Shown here in pieces: positions 11,734 through 12,759 of a DNA stretch of 37,878 nucleotides (position 1 is the stretch's first letter; every line of letters starts with the position of its first letter). Origin of the DNA: Pseudolactococcus plantarum. GTDB taxonomy: Bacteria > Bacillota > Bacilli > Lactobacillales > Streptococcaceae. Where the stretch lies: positions 1-37,878 of the forward strand of contig JAKDQI010000003.1 in NCBI GenBank assembly GCA_030454995.1, in the 5' to 3' direction. The position numbers were made by a program, and so were the translations under genes. The notes beneath the pieces are model-generated. The model did no database searches. It saw nothing but the letters and a program-made list of their open reading frames with translations, and was not told the DNA's origin.

Positions 11734-12066
11734 TCAGTTAGTCTTTCCACTAAACGGCACCTTGAACCGATAGTCACCGCCCGCTTTCAAAGACACACTG
11801 ATGACCAAGCTTTCTCCTGTTTTTTGATACTGAACCTGACCATGATTAAACACAATTTCACCATCTGTTTGGTTATCAATCACACTCACTGTCATCTTTG
11901 CCATCAGTTGCGCAGTTAAAAATGATTTTTGGCTATGTAGATTTTTTTGATTGTCGACTATCGATGTCAAATAAAAACTTAAAGTCATACTAAAAATGAC
12001 GGAAATCGACAATGCCGAAAGTAGAATTCCGCCTTTTACTTGACGCTTGAAAGTGCATAGATAAAT
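11734..12066 (-). CDS. comGG: Competence pilus minor pseudopilin ComGG
   Basis: This is the last gene of the comG operon. Its frame is open from 12072 and encodes FKRQVKGGILLSALSISVIF and then SMTLSFYLTS, the basic segment plus membrane helix expected for ComGG. The first common start codon (TTG at 12012) would delete this segment, so I place the start at ATT 12066, 10 bases after AAAGGAG, giving 110 residues. ATT starts are rare but known (infC). It overlaps the end of comGF by 31 bases. ComGG lacks a classical prepilin site in the family. The weak point is the start codon; the frame itself is secure. Confidence 0.75.
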   Translation of the reverse strand: MYLCTFKRQVKGGILLSALSISVIFSMTLSFYLTSIVDNQKNLHSQKSFLTAQLMAKMTVSVIDNQTDGEIVFNHGQVQYQKTGESLVISVSLKAGGDYRFKVPFSGKTN

Positions 12067-12479
12067 AGTCGCTCATCTCCTTTTCTAAATATTAAACGGA
12101 TAACTAAGATATTTTTCTGCACTGAAATGACACTAGATGAAATGCCAAAAATCAACGGATGATAACCTTGACCACCTGCATTAGTTTTTCGAAAATCATC
12201 ACTACCTGCTTTAACACCATATCGTCTTATACCATTATCTGTCATGAGATACAAAAAATTATCTTGCACGTTATCTAACTTAGCACCTTCAAATTCTTGT
12301 CTCAATAGATTACAAAAATTTTGCCACTCTCTTTCATCTGATTTCCTGATATTTTTAAACTCTTGTGAGATTAGCGTAGTCATTGCTTGCATTACTAAAA
12401 CAGATAATGAAATCACAAAAAGTGCTACCAACGTTTCTAATAAAGTAAAGGCTTTAAGGTTTCTCTTGTAGCATTTCAA
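12036..12479 (-). CDS. comGF: Competence pilus minor pseudopilin ComGF
   Basis: The product has a short basic leader, a type IV pilin-like signal (KAFTLLETLVALFVISLSVLVM) with the conserved phenylalanine and Glu at position +5, and a C-terminal domain of the ComGF family (CNLLRQEFEGAKL, GISSSVISVQ). The start is taken as TTG at 12479, nine bases after GGGGAGG, which gives 147 residues; the ATG at 12509 would put that binding site inside the gene. It overlaps the end of comGE by 26 bases. ComGF is needed for assembly of the transformation pilus. Confidence 0.85.
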   Translation of the reverse strand: MKCYKRNLKAFTLLETLVALFVISLSVLVMQAMTTLISQEFKNIRKSDEREWQNFCNLLRQEFEGAKLDNVQDNFLYLMTDNGIRRYGVKAGSDDFRKTNAGGQGYHPLIFGISSSVISVQKNILVIRLIFRKGDERLFIYALSSVK

Positions 12480-12759
12480 GACGCAACACCTCCCCACTAT
12501 CATTTGCAATCGTAAGCAGTTTATCTGTTTTGGTCAAGTGAATGATTACACCGTTTGCATTTAAGTTTGTTTGCTCGCTATCATATGCCATAAGAGCTAC
12601 GTTAAGTTCCTCTATTTCCTTATTTTGTTGATAAAGTAATAATCGATTAGCTGAAATTTCTCTTAGCACAACTAGTGTGATAACACCTAATAAGGCCATG
12701 GTAATGAGACTTTCTAACAGGATATACGCATTAACTTGTCGTTTTTTTATATAATCCAC
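12454..12759 (-). CDS. comGE: Competence pilus minor pseudopilin ComGE
   Basis: This 101-residue protein has a basic start (MDYIKKRQV) and a prepilin-like hydrophobic segment NAYILLESLITMALLGVITLVV with Glu17 at the conserved place. The remainder is a short polar domain. The start codon is GTG at 12759, with an in-frame TAG just upstream, so initiation must be here or later; the purine-rich AGGGA abuts it, and coupling to comGD, whose end overlaps by 29 bases, is likely. Identification relies on the fold signature and its place between comGD and comGF. Confidence 0.82.
   Translation of the reverse strand: MDYIKKRQVNAYILLESLITMALLGVITLVVLREISANRLLLYQQNKEIEELNVALMAYDSEQTNLNANGVIIHLTKTDKLLTIANDSGEVLRLEMLQEKP

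Follow-up and report, generated by a model that had tools for sequence, protein, structure and literature searches.

An ATT start codon for comGG in lactococci and its probable origin in the phase of the overlap with comGF

Where does translation of comGG begin in Pseudolactococcus plantarum, and why should it begin at an ATT codon? E. coli infC and pcnB are AUU-initiated genes. To our knowledge few bacterial genes start in this way, and such starts are usually read as regulatory. The gene discussed here lies on the minus strand of the window, by which we mean the whole stretch of 37,878 nucleotides that was analysed (contig JAKDQI010000003.1, positions 1 to 37,878). Read from the ATT codon to TGA (11734..12066, minus strand), comGG codes for a minor pilin of the competence pilus of 110 amino acids. 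It is the last pseudopilin gene of the comGA-GG operon and is followed by an ispE-like gene. The initial annotation had taken it for the comGG of a lactococcus, and this identity was confirmed both by the NCBIfam profile NF041014 and by the presence of comGF and comGE before it. The ATT-initiated product scores 85.9 bits with this profile, well in excess of the curated cut-off of 40 bits, and its residues 9-103 fall on model positions 2-100. comGE and comGF were identified by profile, the latter with NF041002 and PF15980, while comGA, comGB, comGC and comGD were read from the open reading frames in order. comGF extends from a probable TTG start at 12479 to a TAA stop at 12038-12036 (12036..12479, minus strand) and shares 31 nt with comGG in phase 2.

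Alignment of ComGG proteins revealed an N-terminus made of a basic leader, whose cleavage is predicted, a small residue before the helix and a hydrophobic N-terminal helix. The leader, the K-[AG]-G segment and the helix are kept in all of the 11 comGG-bearing genomes of the window genus. As compared to L. plantarum, comGG outside the overlap has a dN of 0.11 and a dS of 0.29 (dN/dS about 0.39), and the ratio is 0.13-0.21 in three other pairs. These substitution rates show purifying selection on the gene.

Further unusual starts may be present nearby and elsewhere in this genome. At the start of comGE (12750-12759, minus strand) a GTG at 12759 directly abuts GGGA, and an ATA at 12750 is situated 8 nt after GGGAG. 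The column of this ATA holds ATA in most relatives and TTA or ATC in some, and two genomes (L074, L075) carry GCG in place of the GTG. The infC gene of this genome (L133, C135:11-424) has no ATG, GTG or TTG at the expected N-terminus; its sequence there, AGTAAGGAG-aaca-ATC-ATA-GCA, suggests an ATC or ATA start.

The reading frame of comGG opens after an in-frame TGA at 12075-12073 (12073..12075, minus strand), which bounds it, and continues as GCG ACT ATT (12066-12064) TAT CTA TGC ACT TTC AAG CGT and then as CAA GTA AAA GGC GGA ATT CTA CTT TCG GCA TTG (12012-12010). Direct reading of the minus strand from 12500 to 11500 verified what had been reported for this frame, namely that ATG, GTG, TTG and CTG are all absent until the TTG at 12012 is reached. 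The ATT at 12066 is placed 10 nt after the motif AAAGGAG (12083-12077), again as reported. It had also been claimed that the true start is upstream of this TTG, and here too the data agree. The TTG (12010..12012, minus strand) is the first canonical start in frame, but by sequence and profile match it is inside the membrane helix. Since it codes for residue 19 of the product, it cannot start a working pilin, and its use would remove the basic leader, the K-G-G segment and a part of the helix. It was thus rejected as a start. Two other candidates were set aside as well. A start further upstream is opposed by a stop, TGA or TAA, two codons before the ATT in 13/27 of the copies compared below, which prevents the ATT of these copies from being internal to a longer gene. 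A second ATT four codons on is found in 17/27 copies only and is ACT in this strain. RNA structure around the comGG start revealed nothing unusual (z = -0.42). Taken as a whole, the sequence comparison makes the ATT at 12064..12066 (minus strand) almost certainly the start codon of comGG.

A search of the family found comGG in 293/296 genomes. It was present in 11 of the 12 genomes of the window genus (the twelfth is 70% complete), the named members being L. plantarum, laudensis, insecticola, chungangensis, reticulitermitis, piscium, hodotermopsidis and raffinolactis, i.e. the Lactococcus_A/Pseudolactococcus group. All 11 share the ATT, at an identical place in the alignment. Beyond the genus, the comparison covered 17 genomes from a second genus of lactococci (g8), one from a third (g2) and 49 streptococci in which the ComGF site is clear. 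In the second genus, which includes L. nasutitermitis and is probably Lactococcus in the strict sense, ATT stands at the aligned site in 15/17 genomes, and it is there also in the single genome of the third (L068). ATT is thus found in 27 genomes, which is 27/27 of the lactococcal copies that overlap comGF in phase 2, and the only exceptions among the lactococci examined are two genomes, G049 and G053. From column -8 to column +13, the ATT column alone holds a possible start codon in all of the 27 copies. The comparison of ComGG N-termini and upstream codons proposed in the initial annotation therefore came out in its favour, with the basic leader and K-[AG]-G kept together with ATT, and no replacement of the start by ATG along with a leader segment that is not conserved was seen in the relatives examined. 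One of the 15 copies of the second genus (G041, L059) is broken, with a TGA six codons downstream of the ATT and then a TAG. Six lactococcal genomes (L073-L078) have a short comGG frame of 66-74 amino acids.

The ATT lies within the coding region of comGF, and its three bases are not equivalent with respect to that gene. The TT forms the first two bases of a Phe codon, TTT (12063..12065, minus strand), in the ComGF segment E-R-L-F-I-Y. This Phe is present in 26/27 lactococcal ComGF proteins, the genome of the third genus having Leu instead, and in 46/49 streptococcal ones. As the Phe is conserved also in streptococci, where it is outside any start, ComGF itself demands the TT. The A is the third base of the preceding comGF codon, which is CTA in this strain (12066..12068, minus strand). 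This base is A in 27/27 lactococcal copies but in 2/49 streptococcal copies (Fisher p = 1.4e-18, to be taken as a guide because the rows are related by descent). The codon itself varies among lactococci (ACA, CTA, AAA, GTA, AGA, GAA and ATA, coding for T, L, K, V, R, E and I). With codon usage from PolC, the product of the probabilities of an A at this wobble position is 10^-14.6 over all rows and 10^-5.4 when each codon is counted once per genus, again a guide as the rows are related. The ATT codon is thus kept across relatives beyond other coding needs.

A similar pattern was found at the Shine-Dalgarno motif, which is also inside comGF (AAAGGAG, 12077..12083, minus strand). In relatives it is a GGAGG-type motif reaching up to AAAGGAGGTGA. 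The Gly codon of ComGF at position -5 is GGA in 25/27 lactococci as compared to 13/49 streptococci, and position -4 is mostly Gly in lactococci and Glu, Leu, Trp or Met in streptococci. GGA at -5 together with Gly at -4 places GGAGG at a distance of about 9 nt upstream of the ATT. This strain has a slightly long spacer of 10 nt, and its match of 7 nt is shorter than in some relatives. The weakest lactococcal cases are L055 and L068, the latter with an unusual arrangement in which GGAGG is 6-13 nt away. Streptococcal ribosome-binding motifs are different, often weaker, and nearer to their own comGG starts.

What could hold comGG to such a codon becomes apparent from the phase of the overlap. 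An NTG start in a phase-2 overlap requires TGN, a codon for Cys or Trp or a TGA stop, in the upstream gene, and this rule explains why bacteria have so few long overlaps in phase 2 (Sabath et al. 2008, PMC2542354). In lactococci the overlap of comGG with comGF is of this kind, and because ComGF has its conserved Phe (TTT or TTC) there, only NTT is possible at a workable site. The relation between NTG and TGN is common to that study and to ours; theirs counts canonical starts only, and lactococcal comGG is a phase-2 gene that escapes the rule by way of ATT. Within the operon of the window it is the overlap of comGF and comGG alone that is in phase 2, those of comGC with comGD, comGD with comGE and comGE with comGF being in phase 1 (automatic phase labels of all four overlaps were used for the window, L008 and L011 only).

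Streptococcal comGG belongs to the same family (NF041014), has the same position in the operon and likewise has an overlap with comGF, a leader and a membrane helix. It differs in overlapping comGF in phase 1, with candidate starts of ATG, GTG or TTG at an offset of +2 to +17 from the ATT site, downstream of it. In that phase an ATG forms readily at Tyr-Ala (TAT GCT, offset +8). The two lactococcal exceptions, G049 and G053 (L057, L058), have comGG back in phase 1 and use TTG starts. They are nested among lactococci with ATT in a midpoint-rooted PolC tree with one streptococcal outgroup, and the wobble A that is still present in both looks like a relic. In addition, ATG, GTG or TTG candidates are present in every one of 22 ComGG copies that belong to other families of the order. 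The two of these that are in phase 2 use an ATGA stop-start overlap, which is the one exit left by the phase-2 constraint. The TTG starts of G049 and G053 in phase 1 and the 22 copies of other families are thus two independent observations that fit an overlap constraint.

From this pattern we infer initiation by the ribosome at the ATT, cleavage of the leader and a slip of one base, with its direction and the order of the steps. The 30S subunit would bind AAAGGAG inside the coding region of comGF, with the AUU at 12066 at the right distance and in the comGG frame. The product would be a prepilin with a basic leader of 13 residues (fM-YLCTFKRQVKGG), which the prepilin peptidase should cut before ILLSALS; as the removed leader contains the start residue, the latter should be absent from mature ComGG. 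In a lactococcal ancestor the comGG frame could have slid by one base relative to comGF, passing from phase 1 into phase 2. There, every NTG start would require comGF to have a codon for Cys or Trp or a TGA stop. The Phe at a workable distance would leave NTT, and ATT is the NTT codon known to serve as a start. Selection would then have maintained the strong Shine-Dalgarno motif and the A, whose site in comGF is synonymous. Why the lineages kept the Phe and did not change it to Cys or Trp is argued from its conservation. We give this explanation as a whole, the ATT start together with the overlap constraint, a probability of roughly 70%.

It could also be possible that the ATT persists because its weakness as a start keeps the tip pilin at a low, IF3-sensitive dose, as the initial annotation had suggested. 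ComGG has been described as the pilin that caps the tip (PMC12040237), and if it is so, few copies should be needed. In S. aureus the non-AUG starts of cvfC1 (AUU) and ccpN (AUA) are conserved, have extended Shine-Dalgarno motifs and in a reporter give about 10% of the AUG level in poor medium (PMC13009471, in which pcnB and cvfC1 are cited as AUU-start genes). The apparent lack of a canonical start in infC of this genome would also go with such a reading. However, the starts of streptococcal comGG are ATG, GTG or TTG, with no weak start conserved among them, and G049 and G053 have moved to TTG. ComGD, ComGE and ComGF adjoin ComGG in the modelled tip (PMC12040237), so that a tenfold cut in ComGG alone is not obviously useful. 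A strong Shine-Dalgarno motif also opposes a low dose. A regulatory reason is thus unlikely, and a lower rate of initiation at the ATT may be a consequence of the codon and not the reason for it. Overlap geometry appears to be the better-supported cause of AUU in place of AUG.

A much smaller chance is left for the ATT being an artefact of assembly or a product of the coding needs of comGF alone. The latter accounts for the TT, which is dictated by Phe. It does not account for the A, a free wobble base for most of the residues found and one that is rare in streptococci, and independent genomes agree on the ATT in 27/27 copies. Still less probable is that ComGG arises through a ribosomal frameshift in comGF, or by initiation at an ATG at 12058 that is out of frame. 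This ATG (12056..12058, minus strand; comGF Tyr-Ala, TAT GCA) does occupy the place of the streptococcal start in this strain and in L. plantarum, but it is absent in 9/11 genomes of the genus, which mostly have TAC GCA. A shift by -1 occurring upstream of codon -3 would hit a stop in 13/27 copies, inspection by eye revealed no conserved slippery heptamer, and frameshifting leaves the kept ATT and its Shine-Dalgarno motif unexplained. Equally improbable is a decayed or truncated gene starting at the internal TTG, for although the broken copy of G041 indicates that comGG is not always kept and many L. lactis strains are without intact late com genes (PMC11244767), the N-terminal features are kept in all 11 genomes of the genus, the substitution rates show purifying selection, the TTG is not conserved, and its column in the helix differs among relatives.

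The start codon of comGG and its origin in the overlap can be compared with the AUU-initiated genes described earlier. E. coli infC and pcnB and S. aureus cvfC1 resemble comGG in having a near-cognate AUU that is conserved among relatives and a strong Shine-Dalgarno motif. They are read as regulatory with no overlap cause reported, whereas the comGG start is 28 nt inside the coding part of the upstream gene. No mention of a comGG with an ATT or AUU start was found in the open-access papers searched, the subscription literature being largely outside that search, and these papers yielded no profiling, peptide or reporter evidence of initiation at this codon in lactococcal comGG. AUU starts as such are known in bacteria, and the case of comGG would be an addition whose cause is unusual and open to a direct test, because the A of the ATT can be exchanged without altering ComGF.

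If this reading is true, the N-termini of lactococcal ComGG proteins predicted with standard starts would be wrong, which matters for work on transformation in lactococci. In a wider sense, at least three lactococcal genera would have kept an obligatory AUU start after a one-base slip into a phase that forbids every standard start, and near-cognate starts, beyond their role in regulation, would then give long overlaps in phase 2 a general escape that is under-annotated; we hold this broader proposition to be evenly balanced. Long phase-2 overlaps would, if the explanation holds, be a place to seek hidden near-cognate starts.
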